From Candidatus Alloclostridium intestinigallinarum (GTDB lineage: Bacteria > Bacillota > Clostridia > Christensenellales > UBA3700), in assembly GCA_904382605.1 (NCBI GenBank), contig CAJFJA010000008.1:1-64000 (forward strand): a DNA stretch of 64,000 nucleotides, given 5' to 3'. Below are positions 54,230-64,000 of the stretch, piece by piece (position 1 is the first letter of the stretch; every line of letters starts with the position of its first letter). Made by a program: the position numbers and the translations under genes. The notes under the pieces are model-generated. The model saw nothing but the letters and a program-made list of their open reading frames with translations, was not told the origin of the DNA and did no database searches.

Positions 54230-55894
54230 ATGAATCATTCCGACAATAAAAGAAAGCCCTCTGAAAAAAAAGACAATTTGAAAGTGGTCGCCTTTGCGGC
54301 GGCGGTATGTCTGTTTTTCATAATGGTCGGACTTTTGATAGCGGGTTTGCAAAATGTTGCGGTGGATACGCTGTATGTGGACGGGTGCAAACTTGTCAAA
54401 GGGGAACAGGGATATAGCATTGTGGATTACGATGAGTTTATGTGCGGCAAGAAAAAACTTACCATTCCCGAACATGTAGGGGGCGTTCCCGTCGTGTCAA
54501 TTTCTAGCTGGGCATTTGCGTCTTCCAACATAAAAGAAATCGTATTGCCCGCAAGCTTGCTGGAGATAGAACATGGAGCATTCGGTTGGTGTCATACGCT
54601 TGAAAGCATAGAGTTTGCCGAAAACAGTAAACTTGCAAGCATTGGAAGTAGCGCTTTCTATTATTGCGATTCACTTACAAGCATTGAGATACCGGACAGC
54701 GTAATAATCATAGGAGATTATGCATTCAATAGGTGTGATTCACTTACAAGTATTGAAATACCCGACAGTGTAACAAGCATAGGAGAGAATGCATTCTCCG
54801 ATACTAATCTAGTTCGAGAAGAGAACGGTGTTAGTTATGTTGATAAATGGGTTATTAATTGCGATAGTTCATTAAAGCAGGTACAATTGCGTGATAATAC
54901 GGCAGGCATAGCCAATAGCGCATTTTATAATTGTAGTTCGCTTACAAGCATTGAAATACCCGATGGGGTAAGAAGCATAGGCGATTCAGCGTTCTATTAT
55001 TGTGATTTGCTTGTAAGTATAACCATACCCGATAGTGTAACAAGTATAGGGTACAGCGCGTTCAGCGGTTGCAGTTCACTTACAAGCATTGTGATACCAG
55101 ATGGAGTAACAAGCATAGGTGATGAAACATTTCGGTCTTGCGATTCACTTACAAGCATTGAAATATCAGACAGTGTAACAAGTATCGGAGAGGAAGTATT
55201 CGCGTGGTGCGATTCACTTACAAGCATTGAAATACCCGATGGGTTAAGAATCATAGGCGATTCTGCATTCTATTATTGTGATTTGCTTGTAAGTATAACC
55301 ATACACGATAGTGTAACAAGTATAGGGTGCAGCGCGTTCAGCGGTTGCAGCTCACTTACAAGCATTGTGATACCAGATGGAGTAACAAGCATAGGTGATG
55401 AAACATTTCGGTCTTGCGATTCACTTACAAGTATTGAAATACCGGACAGTGTAACAAGTATCGGAGAGGAAGCATTCGCGTGGTGCGATTCACTTACAAG
55501 CATTGAAATACCCGATGGGGTAAGAAGCATAGGCGATAGAGCATTCCTCGGAACTAATTTAATTCAAAAAGAAAACGGTGTTAGTTATGTTGATAAATGG
55601 GTTATTGATTGCGATGGTTCATTGAAGCAAGTGCAATTGCGTGATAATACGGTGGGTATCGCTGATAGCGCATTTGACTTGTGCGATTTAACAAGCATAA
55701 TTATACCGGACAGTGTAACAAACATAGGCGCGGAAGCATTCTATTTGTGCGATTCGCTTAAAACCATAAACTTCCAAGGTACCAAGGCGCAATGGGAGGC
55801 AGTAAATAAAGGCGACGATTGGAATGATTTTGTCGGAGGATCCAGAGGCTATACGGTAGTTTGTACGGACGCCACCTTGCATGAAGAAGGATAG
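54230..55894 (+). CDS. Membrane-anchored BspA-like leucine-rich-repeat protein
   Basis: 554 residues. Charged N terminus, one membrane anchor (VVAFAAAVCLFFIMVGLLIA, about 22-41), then about 17 LRR_5 repeats of 23 residues of the form CDSLTSIEIPDSVTSIGxxAF. A 276-bp (4 x 69) block is duplicated in tandem, at 54983 and 55259, nearly base for base. Two VSYVDKWVI segments interrupt the repeats. BspA-type proteins are surface adhesins of gut and oral bacteria. No sorting signal at the C terminus; the N-terminal anchor would hold it outside. Confidence 0.85.
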   Translation: MNHSDNKRKPSEKKDNLKVVAFAAAVCLFFIMVGLLIAGLQNVAVDTLYVDGCKLVKGEQGYSIVDYDEFMCGKKKLTIPEHVGGVPVVSISSWAFASSNIKEIVLPASLLEIEHGAFGWCHTLESIEFAENSKLASIGSSAFYYCDSLTSIEIPDSVIIIGDYAFNRCDSLTSIEIPDSVTSIGENAFSDTNLVREENGVSYVDKWVINCDSSLKQVQLRDNTAGIANSAFYNCSSLTSIEIPDGVRSIGDSAFYYCDLLVSITIPDSVTSIGYSAFSGCSSLTSIVIPDGVTSIGDETFRSCDSLTSIEISDSVTSIGEEVFAWCDSLTSIEIPDGLRIIGDSAFYYCDLLVSITIHDSVTSIGCSAFSGCSSLTSIVIPDGVTSIGDETFRSCDSLTSIEIPDSVTSIGEEAFAWCDSLTSIEIPDGVRSIGDRAFLGTNLIQKENGVSYVDKWVIDCDGSLKQVQLRDNTVGIADSAFDLCDLTSIIIPDSVTNIGAEAFYLCDSLKTINFQGTKAQWEAVNKGDDWNDFVGGSRGYTVVCTDATLHEEG

Positions 55895-56679: not shown

Positions 56680-57786
56680 TCACAGTCTGCTTTTGAAATC
56701 GTCGTAGGAAAAGGTTCTTACCGTCATAAGTTCTCCGTCCGATTTTCTGTACAGAATATCGGGCAGAGGCGTGCCGTTAAAGGTGTTCGTCTTTACCATG
56801 GTGTAAAGCGCCATATCCAAAAAGGTCACCCTGTCGCCTATGCGCAGGGGCATATCGAAGGAATAGTCGCCTATGACGTCGCCGGCAAGGCAGGTGTTGC
56901 CCGCAAGGCGGTAGGTGTACTTTTTTTCGCCTGGCTGACCCGAATCAAGCACGGGCGGACGGTAGGGCATTTCCAGCACGTCGGGCATGTGGCAGGCGGC
57001 GGAAGTATCTAAAACGGCTATATCTATGCCGTTGCTTACTATGTCCAGCACCGTGCCATTAAGTTCGCCCGCGTTCAGCACGACCGCTTCGCCCGGCTCC
57101 AGGTAGACTTGCACGCCGTATGTGTCCTGCAAGCGCCGCACGGTCTTTTCCAAAAGGGGAATATCGTAGTCGGGGCGGGTTATGTGGTGTCCGCCGCCCA
57201 GATTCAGCCACTTTACGCGGTGCAGATATTTCCCGAATTTTTCTTCCAGCGCTTCAACGGTCTTTGCAAGCGCGTCGCTGTTTTGTTCGCACAGCGTGTG
57301 CATATGGAATCCGTCCAGAAGCTCAAGCGCGCCTTCGTCGAAGTCGCGCGCTCTTACGCCCATGCGCGAGCCGGGCGAGCAGGGGTCGTATATGGCGTGA
57401 TCCTGCGTGGAACATTCGGGATTCAGCCTCAGCCCCACGCCCTTGCCGCGCGCTTTCGCCGCCGGGGCATACTTTTTCAGCTGCGCCATGCTGTTGAACA
57501 CGAACTCGTCCGCAATATCCAAAAGCTGCTCAAAGTCCCCACGCTTGTAGGCGGGCGAAAATACGTGCACTTCGCCCGGGAAGTGCTCCTTTCCCAGCTT
57601 TGCCTCGTAAAGTCCGCTGGCGGTGGTTCCGTCCAGATACTTTGCTATAAGCGGATAAGTGGCGTAGCAGGAATAAGCCTTTTGCGCAAGCAAAATTTTG
57701 CACCCCGTGTTATCCTTCACCCTTTTTAGGATTTCAAGGTTGCGCAAAAGGTTTTTTTCGTCGATGATAAAGCAGGGCGTGCGCAT
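56680..57786 (-). CDS. nspC: Carboxynorspermidine decarboxylase
   Basis: 368 residues. Fold III PLP decarboxylase: PLP Lys36 in LLAQKAYSCYATY, then GLRLNPECSTQ, HTLCEQNSDAL, WLNLGGGHHITRPDYD, LEPGEAVV and GNTCLAGDVIGDY. It decarboxylates carboxy(nor)spermidine to (nor)spermidine. Start ATG 57786 overlaps the upstream stop (TGATG); longer in-frame upstream codons lie within that gene. A copy of its 3' end sits at 53334-53585. Confidence 0.9.
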   Translation of the reverse strand: MRTPCFIIDEKNLLRNLEILKRVKDNTGCKILLAQKAYSCYATYPLIAKYLDGTTASGLYEAKLGKEHFPGEVHVFSPAYKRGDFEQLLDIADEFVFNSMAQLKKYAPAAKARGKGVGLRLNPECSTQDHAIYDPCSPGSRMGVRARDFDEGALELLDGFHMHTLCEQNSDALAKTVEALEEKFGKYLHRVKWLNLGGGHHITRPDYDIPLLEKTVRRLQDTYGVQVYLEPGEAVVLNAGELNGTVLDIVSNGIDIAVLDTSAACHMPDVLEMPYRPPVLDSGQPGEKKYTYRLAGNTCLAGDVIGDYSFDMPLRIGDRVTFLDMALYTMVKTNTFNGTPLPDILYRKSDGELMTVRTFSYDDFKSRL

Positions 57787-59045
57787 CAGTCCACCAGAGT
57801 GGGATTGTCTTCTATCTGCCAGGGCAGACCGTACTTGTTCAGCGCGTCCATATAGGGATCGGGATCGAACTGTTCCACCGTATAAACGCCGGGGGTCGTC
57901 CACTTGCCCGTGACCATCATAAGCGCGCCTATCATTGCGGGCACGCCCGTGGTGTACGCCACCGCCTGCGAGCCGACTTCCTTATAACATTCTTCGTGGT
58001 CGCAGATATTGTAAATGTACGCGCGCTTTTCCCTGCCGTCCTTTTTGCCCGTGAAGATACAGCCGATATTCGTCTTGCCTTTGGTGCGCGGACCGAGCGA
58101 AGCGGGGTCGGGCAACAGAGCTTTCAGGAACTGAATGGGCACAATCTCGCGCCCTTCGAACATGACGGGTTCGGTGGAGAGCATGCCCACGTTTTCCAGA
58201 CACTTCATGTGCGTGAGATAGCTTTGCCCGAAGGTCATGAAAAAGCGTATGCGCTTTACGCCCTTTATGTTCTTTGCAAGGCTTTCAATCTCCTCGTGGT
58301 GTAGCAGGTACATATCCTTTTCGCCCACGCCGTCGAAGTTGTATTCGCGCTTTATGCTCATGGCGGGCACTTCCACCCACTTGCCGTTCTCCCAATAGGA
58401 GCCGGGAGCGGAAACTTCGCGCAGGTTTATTTCGGGGTTGAAGTTGGTGGCAAACGGATAGCCGTGGTCGCCGCCGTTGCAGTCGAGAATATCTATCGTG
58501 TCAATGCTGTCGAACAGGTGCTTTTGCGCGTAGGCGCAGTAAGCCTGCGTAACGCCGGGGTCGAAGCCCGAGCCGAGCAGGGCGGTGAGTCCCGCCTTTT
58601 TGAACTTATCCATATATTCCCACTGGTAGGAATAGTCGAAGTAGGCGGAAAAGCCCTCCTTTTCACAGCGCTCTTCATACCTCTTGCGCCACTTCGGGTC
58701 GTTTGTGTCCTCCGGCTCGTAGTTTGCCGTGTCCATATAGTTTACGCCGCACTTTAAGCACGCGTCCATTATCGTAAGATCCTGATAGGGCAGGGCTATA
58801 TTCATGACAAGGTCGGGTTTGTAGGAGTTTATCAGCCCGCAAAGCTCGTCCACGTTGTCCGCGTCCACCCTAGCGGTGCTTATTTTCGTCTTTGTCCTGT
58901 CTTCCAGCTTTTTCTTCATGTCGTCGCATTTGGATTTGGTGCGGCTAGCGATACATATCTCCGTGAACACGTCGTCCACCTGACAGCATTTCTGTATTGC
59001 CACCTGCGCCACGCCTCCGCAGCCGATTATAAGAACCTTTGCCAT
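57786..59045 (-). CDS. Carboxynorspermidine dehydrogenase (saccharopine dehydrogenase family)
   Basis: 419 residues. Rossmann start KVLIIGCGGVAQVAIQKC, then ICIASRTKSKCDDM, NIALPYQDLTIMDACL, TALLGSGFDPGVTQA and NGGDHGYPFATNFNPEINLR. It condenses putrescine (or diaminopropane) with aspartate semialdehyde using NADPH. Paired with the decarboxylase downstream it forms the alternative spermidine pathway. Start ATG 59045 follows GGAGG. Confidence 0.9.
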   Translation of the reverse strand: MAKVLIIGCGGVAQVAIQKCCQVDDVFTEICIASRTKSKCDDMKKKLEDRTKTKISTARVDADNVDELCGLINSYKPDLVMNIALPYQDLTIMDACLKCGVNYMDTANYEPEDTNDPKWRKRYEERCEKEGFSAYFDYSYQWEYMDKFKKAGLTALLGSGFDPGVTQAYCAYAQKHLFDSIDTIDILDCNGGDHGYPFATNFNPEINLREVSAPGSYWENGKWVEVPAMSIKREYNFDGVGEKDMYLLHHEEIESLAKNIKGVKRIRFFMTFGQSYLTHMKCLENVGMLSTEPVMFEGREIVPIQFLKALLPDPASLGPRTKGKTNIGCIFTGKKDGREKRAYIYNICDHEECYKEVGSQAVAYTTGVPAMIGALMMVTGKWTTPGVYTVEQFDPDPYMDALNKYGLPWQIEDNPTLVD

Positions 59046-59046
59046 A

Positions 59047-59910
59047 TTAAACCTCCTTGTTTTCGAGAGCAATCAGCATCTCGCGTATTATCTTGCATGC
59101 CGCCGCGGTCGAAACTCCGCTTTGGTCGTAGTGGGGCGAAAGTTCGTTTACGTCGCAACCCACGATATTCGCCTTTCTGCACACCTGCGTAGCCGCCTTC
59201 CTCAATTGCTCGAAAGTGACTCCGCCCGGTTCGGGAGTGCCCGTGCCGGGGAAACAGGACGGATCGAGCACGTCCAGGTCCAGCGTGAAGTATACGGGAA
59301 CGCCCTTTAACTTTTCGAGCGTTTCGCCAAGCCCTTCGAAGTCGAAAAGGCGGGTTGCGACTTTCCCTTTCCCCCACGCAAATTCGCTCTTATCGCCCGA
59401 ACGTATCCCGAACTGGAAAATTTTACCGTCCCCGACAAGGTCGTAACAGCGGTGCAGTACGCACGCGTGGGAGAGTTTCACGCCCAGATAGTCGTCCCTT
59501 AAGTCCGCGTGCGCGTCAAAGTGTATTATGTGCACGTCAGGATATTTCTCCCATACCGCCCTGAAAGCGCCCAGCGTCACCAGGTGTTCGCCGCCTATCA
59601 TGAAGGGGATTTTTCCGTCCTTCAAAATACTGCCCGCACGCTTTTTTATCGCTTTTAGGGTGGCTGTGGCTTCTCCTATCGGCAGTTCCAGTTCCCCGCT
59701 GTCGAAAACGCGGCAGTCTGAAAGGTCGGCGTCCTGGTAGGGGCTGTACGTTTCCAGCCCGAAGGAATCGCGCCTTATCGCGCCGCCGGCAAAGCGGGTG
59801 CCGGGGCGGAAGGACGTGGTACCGTCGAAGGGCGCGGAAAACAGCACTATATCCGCGTCCTTATATTTACAATCGCACGCCATAAAGGCGTCAGTCTGCA
59901 TGTTCAACAT
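59047..59910 (-). CDS. speB: Agmatinase
   Basis: 287 residues of the ureohydrolase family. Mn-binding residues lie in GGEH (106-109), HFDAHAD (130-136) and TLDLDVLDPS (209-218). It hydrolyses agmatine to putrescine and urea. The start at 59910 is favoured by GAGGAG ten bases upstream, inside the speE end (20-base overlap). Confidence 0.9.
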   Translation of the reverse strand: MLNMQTDAFMACDCKYKDADIVLFSAPFDGTTSFRPGTRFAGGAIRRDSFGLETYSPYQDADLSDCRVFDSGELELPIGEATATLKAIKKRAGSILKDGKIPFMIGGEHLVTLGAFRAVWEKYPDVHIIHFDAHADLRDDYLGVKLSHACVLHRCYDLVGDGKIFQFGIRSGDKSEFAWGKGKVATRLFDFEGLGETLEKLKGVPVYFTLDLDVLDPSCFPGTGTPEPGGVTFEQLRKAATQVCRKANIVGCDVNELSPHYDQSGVSTAAACKIIREMLIALENKEV

Positions 59911-60751
59911 TGCTCAGCAGCTCCTCTACGTATGCGGGGATATAAAACGCCCCTTTGTGCAAAGTCGTGGTATAGTATTTGCATTTTATGCCGCGCGCGT
60001 TCCACTTTTTTTCGTCAATGTCGCGTAGCGGGTGGTATTTTTTGGAAGCGAATCCGAACAGCCAGTGCCCCGAAGGGTAGCTGGGAATATGCGCCTGGTA
60101 CACTTTTGCTTTGGGGAAGGATTCCACGATGCGCTTGTGCGCGCGCTGGCAGGCAATCGCGTCCTCCGCGTAAAAGGGGCTTTCGTGCTGGTTGACCATA
60201 ATGCCGTCTTCGCGCAGGGCCTTGTAGCAGTTGCCGTAAAATTCGCGGGTGAAAAGTCCTTCTCCCGGTCCGAACGGATCGGTGGAGTCCACTATTATAA
60301 GGTCGTAGGCGTCCTTTCTGGTGCGCACGAATTTCAGTCCGTCTTCAAAGTGCAGGCTCACCCTGGGGTCGTCGAAGGCGCAGGCGGTAAAGGGCAGATA
60401 TTCCCTGCACACGCGCGTGACTTCCTCGTCTATCTCCACCAGGTCGATATGTTCTATATCGCCGTATTTGACAAGTTCGCGGATAACTCCGCCGTCGCCG
60501 CCGCCGATGACGAGTATATCCTTTGCGTGCGGATGCACGGCGAGAGGGACGTGCGTTATCATCTCGTGATAGATGAACTCGTCCTTTTCCGTAAGCATCA
60601 TATAGCCGTCAAGCACCAAAAATCTGCCGAATTCGGGCGAATCGAACACGTCTATGCGCTGGAATTCGCTCCTGCCCGAGTACACCTGCTTATCCACGCG
60701 GATGGAAAGTTTAACGTTGGGCGTATGCATTTCAGAAAACCAGTATTCCAT
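59891..60751 (-). CDS. speE: Spermidine synthase
   Basis: 286 residues. YSGRSEFQRIDVFDS, VLDGYMMLTEKDEF, the decarboxy-SAM site LVIGGGDGGVIREL (80-93), and the catalytic Asp in LIIVDSTDPFGPGEGLF. It moves an aminopropyl group from decarboxylated SAM to putrescine. It overlaps speB and is one base after speA. Confidence 0.95.
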   Translation of the reverse strand: MEYWFSEMHTPNVKLSIRVDKQVYSGRSEFQRIDVFDSPEFGRFLVLDGYMMLTEKDEFIYHEMITHVPLAVHPHAKDILVIGGGDGGVIRELVKYGDIEHIDLVEIDEEVTRVCREYLPFTACAFDDPRVSLHFEDGLKFVRTRKDAYDLIIVDSTDPFGPGEGLFTREFYGNCYKALREDGIMVNQHESPFYAEDAIACQRAHKRIVESFPKAKVYQAHIPSYPSGHWLFGFASKKYHPLRDIDEKKWNARGIKCKYYTTTLHKGAFYIPAYVEELLSNVEHAD

Positions 60752-60752
60752 A

Positions 60753-62207
60753 TCAAACTCCTTTTAGCACGTTCAGCCTTGTAATGTCGGCGTCTTCCGG
60801 GCCGGTCATGGAACAGCCCTTGTCCTTGGCGTATCTTATATAGTCGAGTATCTGCGGCGTAATCTTCTCCCCGGGCGCGAGTATGGGTATGCCGGGAGGG
60901 TAGCACATTACGAATTCGCTGCAAATCCTGCCCGACGTTTCCTCTACGGGCAGGGAAATTTTGTCCGCGTAAAACGCTTCCTGCGGCGACACCACCACGA
61001 CGGGGTCGATGTATTCCTGCTTCATAAGTCCCGCCTTGTCGCGCCTGAACCGCCTGCGTATCTCCGCCAGGGCGCCGATGAGCCTTTCTATCTCGCGGGG
61101 ACGGTCGCCTATCGAGATGTAGGCGAGCAGGTTGCCCAAATCGCCGAATTCCGCCTGAATGTCGTATTCGTCGCGCAAAAGCGAGTAGACTTCTATGCCC
61201 GCAAGTCCCACGTTCAGCGTGTTTATCGAAAGTTTTGTTTCGTCAAAGTCGAATATGCTGTCGCCGTTGATCAGTTCCCTGCCGTAAGCGTAGTAGTCGC
61301 CTATTTCGTTCACTTCGTCGCGGGCGTATCTTGCAAGGCGCATTACGCGCGCAAAGGCGTCTTTGCCGCGGAGCGCCAGATTCCTGCGCGAAATATCGAG
61401 TGAAGAAAGCAGGAGGTAAGACGCGCTCGTCGTCTGCGTAAGGTTTATTATCTGCCTTACGTAGCCTTCGTGCATGGAAGGGCCGGTGAGCAGTATGGAA
61501 CTTTGCGTAAGACTGCCGCCCGACTTGTGCATGGAAACCGCCGCCATATCCGCGCCCGCCGCCATGGCGGAAACGGGCATATCCTCGCCGAAATAAAAGT
61601 GCGTGCCGTGCGCTTCGTCGACTATGCACAGCATATTGTGTTCGTGCGCCAGCTTTACTATCTCCCTGAGATTGGAGCATATGCCGTAATATGTGGGGTT
61701 GTTCACCAGAACCGCTTTGGCGTCCGGGTTGGCGAGAATGGCTTTTTTCACGCCCTCAACGCCCATGCCCAGCGATATGCCCAGATTGTCGTCGCATTCG
61801 GGGTCCACGTACACGGGCAGGGCGCCGTTAAGCACCATTGCGCCCATGACGCTGCGGTGCACGTTGCGCGGCAGAATTATCTTCTCGCCCTTTTTGGATA
61901 CGGCAAGCACCATGCTCTGCACGGCTGAAGTTGTTCCGCCCACCATCAAAAAGGCGTGCGCCGCGCCGAAAGCCTCCGCCGCCAGCTCTTCCGCGTCCTT
62001 TATGACGGAAACGGGGTGGCACAGAAAGTCCAGACATTTCATGGAATTGACGTCCAGATTCATGCACCGCTCGCCCAGAAGGGCGGTGAGTTCGGGATTG
62101 CCGCGCCCGCGCTTGTGCCCCGGTACGTCGAAAGGCACCATGCGCATGGACTGCAAGTTTTCCAGCGCCTCATAGATTGGCGCGCGCTCTTGTGAAAGTT
62201 TTTTCAT
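60753..62207 (-). CDS. speA: Arginine decarboxylase (Orn/Lys/Arg family, fold I)
   Basis: 484 residues, the short Bacillus SpeA-like form without the wing domain. VPGHKRGRG near 28, VGGTTSAVQSMVLAV, VDEAHGTHFYFG (197-208) and PLP Lys228 in SMHKSGGSLTQSS. The C-terminal EFVMCYPPGIPILAPGE is family-typical. It makes agmatine from arginine for SpeB; lysine decarboxylation cannot be fully excluded. One base after speD. Confidence 0.9.
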   Translation of the reverse strand: MKKLSQERAPIYEALENLQSMRMVPFDVPGHKRGRGNPELTALLGERCMNLDVNSMKCLDFLCHPVSVIKDAEELAAEAFGAAHAFLMVGGTTSAVQSMVLAVSKKGEKIILPRNVHRSVMGAMVLNGALPVYVDPECDDNLGISLGMGVEGVKKAILANPDAKAVLVNNPTYYGICSNLREIVKLAHEHNMLCIVDEAHGTHFYFGEDMPVSAMAAGADMAAVSMHKSGGSLTQSSILLTGPSMHEGYVRQIINLTQTTSASYLLLSSLDISRRNLALRGKDAFARVMRLARYARDEVNEIGDYYAYGRELINGDSIFDFDETKLSINTLNVGLAGIEVYSLLRDEYDIQAEFGDLGNLLAYISIGDRPREIERLIGALAEIRRRFRRDKAGLMKQEYIDPVVVVSPQEAFYADKISLPVEETSGRICSEFVMCYPPGIPILAPGEKITPQILDYIRYAKDKGCSMTGPEDADITRLNVLKGV

Positions 62208-62208
62208 C

Positions 62209-62967
62209 TCAGTACACGTTCCTGCCGCTGAAAATTTCTATCATCTCGCGGCGCAGATTGTTCATTATCTCCAGCCTGAGCCTGGGCGGAAGTTCGTATA
62301 CGTCCGTCTTGAACAGGTAGTTTTGCAGATTGATGTCCTTCACCATCATCTTGGTGTGGAATATATTCGCCCCGTACACGTTTATATCCACCGCGTCGTA
62401 ACGCGAAAGTATGTTGTCGGACACGTAATCCTGTATGCTGGTCACCTTGTGGTCCATGAACAGCTTTTTGCCGTCCACGTCGCGCGTAAAGCCGCGCACG
62501 CGGTAGTCCATGGTTATTATGTCGGAATCGAACGAGCTTATCAGATAATCCAGCGTGGAAAGGGGCGTTATCTCGCCGCAGGTGGCGACGTCTATATCCA
62601 CGCGGAAGGTGGCAAGCGAAGTTTCGGGGTGGTATTCGGGATAGGTGTGCACGGTGACGTGGCTCTTGTCAAGGTGCGCCAGCTGTGTTTCGCCCGCGGG
62701 TTTCATAGAACCTTCGGCAATGAGTATGGTTACGGAAGCGCCCTGGGGGTCGTAGTCCTGTTTGGCTATGTTCAGCACCTTTGCGCCTATCATGTCCGTA
62801 AGGGTGGTGAGGATATTGGTAAGGCGTTCGGAGTTATACTGCTCGTCGATGTATGCGATATAATCGCGCTGTTCGCGCGCGGTTTTCGCGTAACATACGT
62901 CGTATATGTTAAAGCTCAGAGACTTGGTCAGGTTGTTGAACCCGTATAACTTCATCTTATCTTCCAT
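62209..62967 (-). CDS. speD: S-adenosylmethionine decarboxylase
   Basis: 252 residues, close to the 264 of the E. coli type. The self-cleavage Ser is about 102 in [13 protein letters not shown], which becomes the pyruvoyl cofactor; [13 protein letters not shown] and [11 protein letters not shown] follow. It supplies decarboxylated SAM to SpeE. Start ATG 62967 follows GGAGGA. First gene of the polyamine operon, directly after the leader terminator. Confidence 0.93.
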
Positions 62968-62979
62968 TTTTCCTCCGAC

Positions 62980-63010
62980 AAAAAGGGCGATATGCCTAAG
63001 CATACCGCCC
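62980..63010 (-). terminator. Leader terminator before speD
   Basis: Minus strand GGGCGGTATGC/GCATATCGCCC followed by TTTTTG, ending 13 bases before the speD start. Its position between promoter and first gene indicates attenuation. Confidence 0.85.
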
Positions 63011-63297
63011 GTAATAATCGTTATAGTGCACAATGCTCCTACGGATAACAGAGTCTATATAGCAAATACTTACTTTTACTACTCTTATTGTTACAAGCGG
63101 TTTGTACGCGCCCAGGCGGCGTACACGGTTATCAAGTAACCAACTTATAAGGGATCGGTTTCCCGATACAATAAGGCAACGCGTGTTGCTGTTCGGCAGT
63201 GGACCCGGCTGTCCGTATGGCCTTGACCCCTAGGGGTGGTCCGTAGTTATTTGCATGGATACTCTGCAAGGGCGCGACCCTTTCATATCCGATGGTA
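62980..63297 (-). ncRNA. Large structured leader RNA of the polyamine operon, unknown class
   Basis: A ~315-nt untranslated leader. A long-range helix can form between 63286-63299 (minus strand GCTACC, then CGGATA) and 63035-63047 (TATCCG, then GG and AGC), enclosing ~240 bases. Inside are local hairpins such as ATCGG-GAAA-CCGAT, GTACGC...GCGTAC and CCCCTAGGGG. A terminator follows. I recognise no known riboswitch consensus (SAM, cobalamin, lysine, T-box all lacking). A 60-codon frame across it looks spurious. Candidate sensor of SAM, polyamine or arginine. Confidence 0.6.
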
Positions 63298-63302
63298 GCT
63301 TC

Positions 63303-63331
63303 ATTGTAAAGCATAAATTTTCAAATGTCAA
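63303..63331 (-). promoter_or_regulatory. Polyamine operon promoter
   Basis: Minus-strand TTGACA (63331-63326) and TACAAT (63308-63303), 17-bp spacer; transcription begins near 63296. Confidence 0.88.
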
Positions 63332-63586
63332 TTACTTTCCCGAAAATAGCGCGTATAAAATGAAAAAGTACCCGCCCTTTCCGGGCGGTGTGTAAAGAAA
63401 ACGGCGGACGGCGGGGTGTCTTGTGAAAAAATTGTGAAAATTAAACGTTAATTTACCTTGCCGCGCTTGCATTTTCCGCCCTCAATAATATAAAATTATT
63501 AAGACAGGCAATATTTTTTTCGGCGCGCGGCGGCGCGGCAATATGAATACGCTGGTCACTCAAATAAACTTTCGCGGAGGTGGCTT

Positions 63587-64000
63587 ATGGCGTCTATCAA
63601 AGAACAATTCAGACAGATCAAACCCGCAAACTTCTTCTTTCTCACCATTGCGGGCATAATAAACGCGGTGGGCGTAACGCTTTTTCTCGCGCCCGAAGCG
63701 GTGAACTTGTACGACAGCGGATTTTCCGGCACTTCCATTCTGCTGGGCAATCTGACGGAAAACGTCGGTATGAATATGAGTATCTGGCTCATTATTCTCA
63801 ACGTGCCGTTTTTCTTGCTCGGACTTAAAAAAATGGGCGTGCCGTTCATAGCGTATTCCCTCTATACCATAGGCGTGTATTCGCTGTTTTCCTGGTGTTT
63901 CCAGACGGGATTTCATATCGTGTTCCCCGACGGCGGCTCCCCCATTGCGGGCAGCGACAAACTGCTGTGCGCCATCTTCGGCGGACTTATATCCGGTATA
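63587..64000 (+). CDS. YitT-family membrane protein (partial, cut by window end)
   Basis: 138 residues seen. The order IKPANFFFLTIAGIINAVGV, LFLAPEAVNLYDSGFSGTS, then NVPFFLLGLKKMG and membrane segments matches the N terminus of the YitT/DUF161 family, whose C-terminal DUF2179 domain would lie beyond the window. Function unknown. ATG 63587 follows GCGGAGG. The 63340-63586 gap before it holds only an AT-rich stretch with a possible weak promoter. Confidence 0.82.
   Translation, partial: MASIKEQFRQIKPANFFFLTIAGIINAVGVTLFLAPEAVNLYDSGFSGTSILLGNLTENVGMNMSIWLIILNVPFFLLGLKKMGVPFIAYSLYTIGVYSLFSWCFQTGFHIVFPDGGSPIAGSDKLLCAIFGGLISGI

Follow-up and report, generated by a model that had tools for sequence, protein, structure and literature searches.

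A structured leader RNA found upstream of polyamine biosynthesis and import genes in the Bacillota, a candidate new riboswitch class

The window analysed here, a 64,000-nucleotide stretch of Candidatus Alloclostridium intestinigallinarum DNA, encodes a long leader RNA in front of a polyamine operon. Judged by its sequence relatives, this RNA recurs across the Bacillota almost exclusively before genes for the production or import of polyamines, making it a candidate new riboswitch class. It is probably a large cis-acting feedback OFF riboswitch, through which a polyamine, most likely spermidine, would end transcription early. The databases have so far held just a 54-nt piece of this RNA, entered as a small RNA of unknown function.

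The whole leader (62980..63296, minus strand) comprises ~317 nt up to the terminator U-tract and was delineated by folding and by homologues at ~180 distinct loci gathered across the Bacillota. Its folding energy lies 3.8 sd under that of shuffled sequences, none of 100 shuffles being equally low. Upstream lies a sigma-70-type promoter (TTGACA-17-TACAAT, 11 of 12 matches; 63303..63331, minus strand), which has the same placement in related loci, and transcription is expected to start near 63296 on the minus strand. The window contains one such site where 1.5 are expected in shuffles, so that this promoter is weak evidence on its own; across the upstream regions of all loci, promoters with 11-12 of 12 matches occur in 89 of 199, as compared to one of 199 shuffled regions. 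The leader ends in an intrinsic terminator, GGGCGGUAUGC-UUAG-GCAUAUCGCCC-UUUUU (62980..63010, minus strand), with an 11-bp stem (63010-62985) that ends 18 nt upstream of the speD ATG at 62967, and speD is provided with a Shine-Dalgarno sequence (GGAGGA, 62976-62971). The operon, entirely on the minus strand, consists in order of speD (S-adenosylmethionine decarboxylase, 62209..62967; TIGR03331, 400.8 bits), an Orn/Lys/Arg decarboxylase gene (60753..62207; OKR_DC_1), speE (spermidine synthase, 59891..60751; profile searches), speB (agmatinase, 59047..59910; TIGR01230), a gene for a carboxynorspermidine synthase-like dehydrogenase (57786..59045; Sacchrp_dh domains, and NF043000 with 416 bits, under the cut-off of 800) and nspC (carboxynorspermidine decarboxylase, 56680..57786; TIGR01047), and codes for a spermidine-type pathway. 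An earlier note, made from the sequence of the window, had described a consensus promoter, a leader of ~315 nt, a terminator just before speD and a polyamine operon; all four hold, the last being borne out by the gene families (speD, speE, agmatinase, nspC). Elsewhere in the window (54230-55894, plus strand), a protein of the leucine-rich BspA-like repeat type, whose repeats are long and nearly identical, was named by eye from its translation.

The 5' domain of the leader (63193..63242, minus strand) is a member of the Rfam family RF02440 (SpF59_sRNA or "ldcC RNA"), matched by cmscan over the full length of the model (1-54) with 68.8 bits (E 8.5e-12) against a cut-off of 37.2 bits, and two genus-mates also reach the membership score. 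It shows covariation and comprises the helices P2 (GGACC 63242-63238/GGUCC 63205-63201), P2a (ACCCC 63237-63233/GGGGU 63230-63226) and P2b (GGC 63222-63220/GCC 63209-63207). A CGG/CCG hairpin placed inside the RF02440 loop by RNAalifold was rejected, because loci with GCCC..GGC break it and keep GGC/GCC by compensation. The Rfam covariance search proposed in the earlier note thus corrects its statement that the leader fits no known class: the leader is not wholly unrecognised, as this 50-nt piece is RF02440, but the statement stands for the 3' domain described below, and the rest of the leader is likewise without an Rfam match. No further class scored above its cut-off in the scan of 62000-64000, where SAM-I, T-box, lysine and other families gave no match at E up to 10; a plus-strand match to Ref66 (27.5 bits, cut-off 92) was discarded as a chance match over the palindromic terminator region.

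In Streptococcus pneumoniae the RF02440 RNA carries the names F59, SN20 and srn235. F59 was described as an 82-nt RNA between SP0915(-) and SP0916(+) (PMC3395615), and SN20 as a ~314-318 nt RNA, with a predicted promoter and rho-independent terminator, between SP0915 and SP0916 (PMC2887815); the latter has the same length as the window leader. Two loci that are probably Streptococcus-like (L213 and L214) have the complete RNA together with a terminator and a gene for a decarboxylase, their RF02440 scores being barely above the cut-off. The length of SN20 and the full RNA at these loci suggest that the Rfam entry, whose type is sRNA, is a fragment of a larger RNA: the model represents 54 nt out of a ~250-nt conserved RNA and lacks the 3' domain, the closing helix, the antiterminator and the wider polyamine regulon. 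The nickname "ldcC RNA" shows that a gene link had been noted by someone before; a functional account of RF02440, SpF59 or "ldcC RNA" was not found in the open literature, to which the search extended. The report of SN20/F59 as a small RNA in S. pneumoniae and the Rfam type would favour a trans-acting small RNA that lies upstream of polyamine genes for some other reason. This is highly improbable, however, given that at all readable loci the RNA shares the strand of the gene and lies a few hundred bases upstream of it, that it overlaps with an antiterminator (see below), and that a terminated leader would itself resemble an sRNA in RNA-seq or tiling arrays.

The P3 hairpin (63176..63189, minus strand; changes on both sides in six of six pairs) is followed by a second, larger and highly conserved 3' domain (63086..63173, minus strand), which is absent from Rfam and occurs in nearly all of the ~180 loci. 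Within it, P4 (UAUUG 63173-63169/CAAUA 63090-63086) encloses P5 (63167-63154), P6 (AUAAGU 63148-63143/GCUUGU 63098-63093), P7 (63141-63127) and P8 (63126-63104), and P9 (AGAGU 63085-63081/ACUCU 63054-63050; 63050..63085) is nearly invariant, with 98% of cells paired. The block common to nearly all loci beyond RF02440 reads UAUUGAUUGAGUUAAAAGCUCAAAUUUUAUAAGUUGGUUACUUUAUAACC..ACUUGUGAAAYGGUCAAUAAGAGUAGUAAAAGUA..UUUGCUAUAUAGACUCUG. When 45 pairs in nine helices of the core were tested in 53 diverse sequences, 95.4% of cells were paired, 22 of the 45 pairs had changes on both sides (10.9 in shuffles) and covariation was 0.213 versus 0.096, none of 500 shuffles being as high. Pairing falls to 29-40% if the partner columns are slid by one to three, and helix pairs rank highest in an unguided covariation ranking, headed by the closing pair of P2 (U-A/G-C/C-G). 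Just three core pairs stay significant (E<0.05) under a phylogeny-aware null, which was custom-made, is heavy-tailed and serves as a conservative bound. The core therewith displays the conserved, covarying structure expected of a riboswitch aptamer. Between alignment columns 110 and 164, the positions directly preceding UUUUAUAAG and following GAAA, A.C (79) is exchanged for G.U (33), an isosteric covariation that suggests a contact of the wobble type and may mark a tertiary contact or belong to the ligand site.

The core is enclosed by a long-range closing helix (minus strand), made up of an outer part (63042..63291; CGGAUA 63291-63286/UAUCCG 63047-63042 and CAGAGU 63266-63261/ACUCUG 63054-63049) and an inner part, P10 (63062..63254; GCAAAUA 63254-63248/UAUUUGC 63068-63062). 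The loci pair their own 5' and 3' ends with -30.2 kcal/mol, as compared to -23.4 kcal/mol for swapped ends (z=-17.5), and matched versus mismatched ends give z=-15 for the inner part, z=-13 for the outer part and z=-1 for an unrelated segment. With swaps within gene class, which reduce but do not fully remove the kinship confound of statistics drawn from related sequences (here and for the antiterminator), the inner and outer parts retain z=-10.4 and z=-10.2, respectively. A closing helix across ~265 bases had been proposed in the earlier note, which made the proposal depend on covariation; the span was right, the three pairings given above constitute the helix, and the matched versus mismatched comparison supports it at z~-10 within class. 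The 5' strand of the helix often forms a local hairpin too, in the window GGAUA/UAUCC with a large loop containing GCAGAGU (63257..63290, minus strand; read from the sequence), which competes or combines with the long-range pairing. As ACUCU can furthermore pair either locally, in P9, or long-range, alternative folds exist in the closing region. Alternatively, an RNA-binding protein responding to polyamine status could read the leader as an attenuator, using the highly conserved unpaired bases as its site, and no ligand would bind the RNA directly. This is rather improbable, since the size of the RNA, its multi-helix core and its long-range closing helix are features typical of an aptamer, and no protein is needed for the overlap of terminator and antiterminator.

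An intrinsic terminator is located downstream in 178 of 181 loci, as compared to five of 56 shuffled sequences. When a 12-nt frame was slid over the whole core, the terminator 5' arm paired best with CACA-AACUUGUG, which is the P6 3' strand with its 5' neighbour, reaching -8.2 kcal/mol against the P6 3' strand versus -3.6 kcal/mol with shuffled arms. Matched versus mismatched pairs give z=-10.5, and z=-10.0 within gene class, with 0.0 for a control segment. This complementarity and its compensatory changes constitute a predicted antiterminator, overlapping the core and by its pairing mutually exclusive with the terminator, as would be expected of a riboswitch. In the window (63000..63107, minus strand), 63107-63091 (GUACAAACCGCUUGUAA, including the P6 3' strand) would pair with 63014-63000 (UUACGGGCGGUAUGC, the terminator 5' arm) at -16.5 kcal/mol; at L216 the antiterminator pairing has shifted onto P8 (GUGGUACAC/GUGUACCAC). 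According to nearest-neighbour energies, the window transcript up to the terminator loop folds to -93.2 kcal/mol with P6 and -89.2 kcal/mol with the antiterminator, as compared to -108.3 (P6 and terminator) and -95.9 kcal/mol for the full transcript. Until the terminator is complete, the P6 and antiterminator states differ little in energy, which is a requirement for switching.

In the proposed mechanism, the core, and probably the P4-P8 domain, would bind a polyamine, most likely spermidine. With the ligand bound, P6 (AUAAGU/RCUUGU) would stay closed and its 3' strand would be unavailable to the terminator arm, allowing the terminator to form and switching the operon OFF; with the ligand absent, the 3' strand of P6/P8 would pair with the terminator 5' arm as the antiterminator, and the operon would be ON. 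The RF02440 domain would serve as an accessory or second sensing domain. The OFF logic is deduced from the functions of the genes. Leader-peptide attenuation through ribosome stalling controls polyamine genes elsewhere, such as speF of Enterobacteria. For the present RNA it is scarcely credible: no conserved leader peptide or uORF was found among 168 leaders, 105 of which have no SD-preceded uORF of at least eight codons, the rest having theirs at scattered places, and uORF attenuation was rejected on these grounds.

Among 174 distinct loci, the first downstream gene codes for an Orn/Lys/Arg decarboxylase in 56, SpeD in 44, the importer component PotA in 42 and carboxynorspermidine synthase in 23. 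A polyamine gene is thus first in all 165 readable loci, with families verified by profile and an independent clustering also done, so that downstream genes of one theme occur in diverse species, as is expected for a riboswitch. The nine unread loci comprise seven that run past the locus end, a chance match of the pattern where the RNA is absent (L041, Caulobacterales), and L186, which is under the cut-off and was left out of the counts. Together with the covariation of the core and of the closing helix, the 165 readable loci uphold the idea, put forward in the earlier note, that the leader is a large structured attenuator or resembles a riboswitch, and that it is linked to polyamine genes. 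Biosynthesis-first and import-first loci have a single gene function in common, that of raising the polyamine level of the cell. As all four gene classes share spermidine as a product or cargo, it is the most probable ligand, with putrescine or cadaverine as less probable candidates. A riboswitch for another metabolite of the pathway (arginine, agmatine, putrescine, cadaverine, SAM or decarboxy-SAM) appears unlikely, even if speD, which uses SAM, and Orn/Lys/Arg decarboxylase genes lead many operons and an agmatinase is present in that of the window. SAM, decarboxy-SAM and arginine, which the earlier note had listed beside a polyamine, play no part in the potA importer or carboxynorspermidine synthase operons led by the same RNA and are disfavoured by these gene associations, leaving a polyamine as the listed ligand that fits the four gene classes.

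RF02440 matches were found in 41 of 391 Clostridia, 25 of 297 genomes of the order of the window, 31 of 400 Bacilli and 18 of 399 Bacillota, and a pattern scan of named genomes matched at least 118 contigs, the matches listed including Faecalibacterium prausnitzii, Blautia schinkii, Paenibacillus, Bacillus, Acidaminococcus, Phascolarctobacterium and Lachnospira. Viral contigs contained no exact match to the RNA, and phage or mobile spread was rejected. A search with the 3' block alone matched 39 of 391 Clostridia genomes, with no matches in reversed-pattern controls; 33 of these matches lie downstream of an RF02440 match, and six are extra loci (L215-L220) in which the 3' domain, the terminator and a polyamine gene are kept and an Rfam scan detected neither RF02440 nor another credible family. 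In several of the six, only a short stretch separates the 5' region from P3 or P4, and a decayed RF02440 remnant is possible in L219. As all nine 3'-domain matches in the Bacilli fall in genomes with an RF02440 match and these six loci lack it, the 3' domain appears to be the more constant part of the RNA and RF02440 a separable domain. More tentatively, the RNA could represent a widespread class of polyamine riboswitches that is new in structure and has two separable conserved domains, a loseable RF02440 and a P4-P9 part absent from Rfam and wired to the terminator, which may be two sensors (for two polyamines, or a polyamine and a precursor) acting on one gate.

The literature searched contains a single validated class of polyamine riboswitch, a rare SAM-I variant that senses spermidine, with 13 known examples (Salvail et al. 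2023, PMC10853860). The present RNA shares with it the position as a polyamine-gene leader in Gram-positive bacteria and, as predicted here, a terminator-based OFF switch and the sensing of spermidine; however, the SAM-I variant has the four-stem architecture of SAM-I, a family without a match in 62000-64000 even at E up to 10, and its helices and conserved bases are unlike those of the present RNA, which is distinct from it. The speF (alpha-proteobacteria), odc1 and potE RNA motifs likewise precede genes for ornithine decarboxylase or polyamine transport (PMC8632094, PMC11477304), but differ in taxa and architecture; no such family is matched by Rfam in the leader, and the odc1 motif has a uORF, of which the present RNA has no conserved counterpart. 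Long multi-helix leaders with mutually exclusive antiterminator and terminator are also known from the lysine and AdoCbl riboswitches, whose covariance models do not match this RNA. Few small molecules bound to RNA are as abundant as polyamines, and the present RNA would show how a large RNA selects a plain polycation. Among the Clostridia and Bacilli sampled, ~8-10% of species have it, Faecalibacterium, Blautia, Paenibacillus and probably Streptococcus being included. A forgotten sRNA entry would thereby become a switch with an explicit and testable mechanism, through which gut bacteria would control the production and import of spermidine.

In the window copy and those of its genus-mates L174 and L175, the otherwise near-invariant GAAAYGGU between P6 and P4 is missing and P5 is remodelled, so that the window copy may be a variant or weakened one. 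With terminator and antiterminator both intact, the window copy is likely to have remained a switch, possibly one of changed affinity or specificity, and this natural variant could serve to test ligand specificity. Other departures from the common form were also observed. The 3' domain is interrupted or lost after P6/P7 in L107, L145 and L051, situated before potA or decarboxylase genes, which may be decaying copies or other platforms, and is strongly altered in the potA-linked L112, L124 and L138, the first of these with two AAUAAGAGU blocks. In the order of the window, L172, L179, L133 and L140 are reduced, with other hairpins in place of P3 and P5-P8, and retain the closing helix and the AAUAAGAGUAGUAAAAGUAAGUAUUUGCUAUAUAGACUC block. 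A copy with speD in an uncultured Spirochaetes MAG (L091) reflects either transfer or mis-binning, and at L150 a c-di-GMP-I riboswitch (2514-2605) lies on the opposite strand, ~1 kb from the polyamine RNA.
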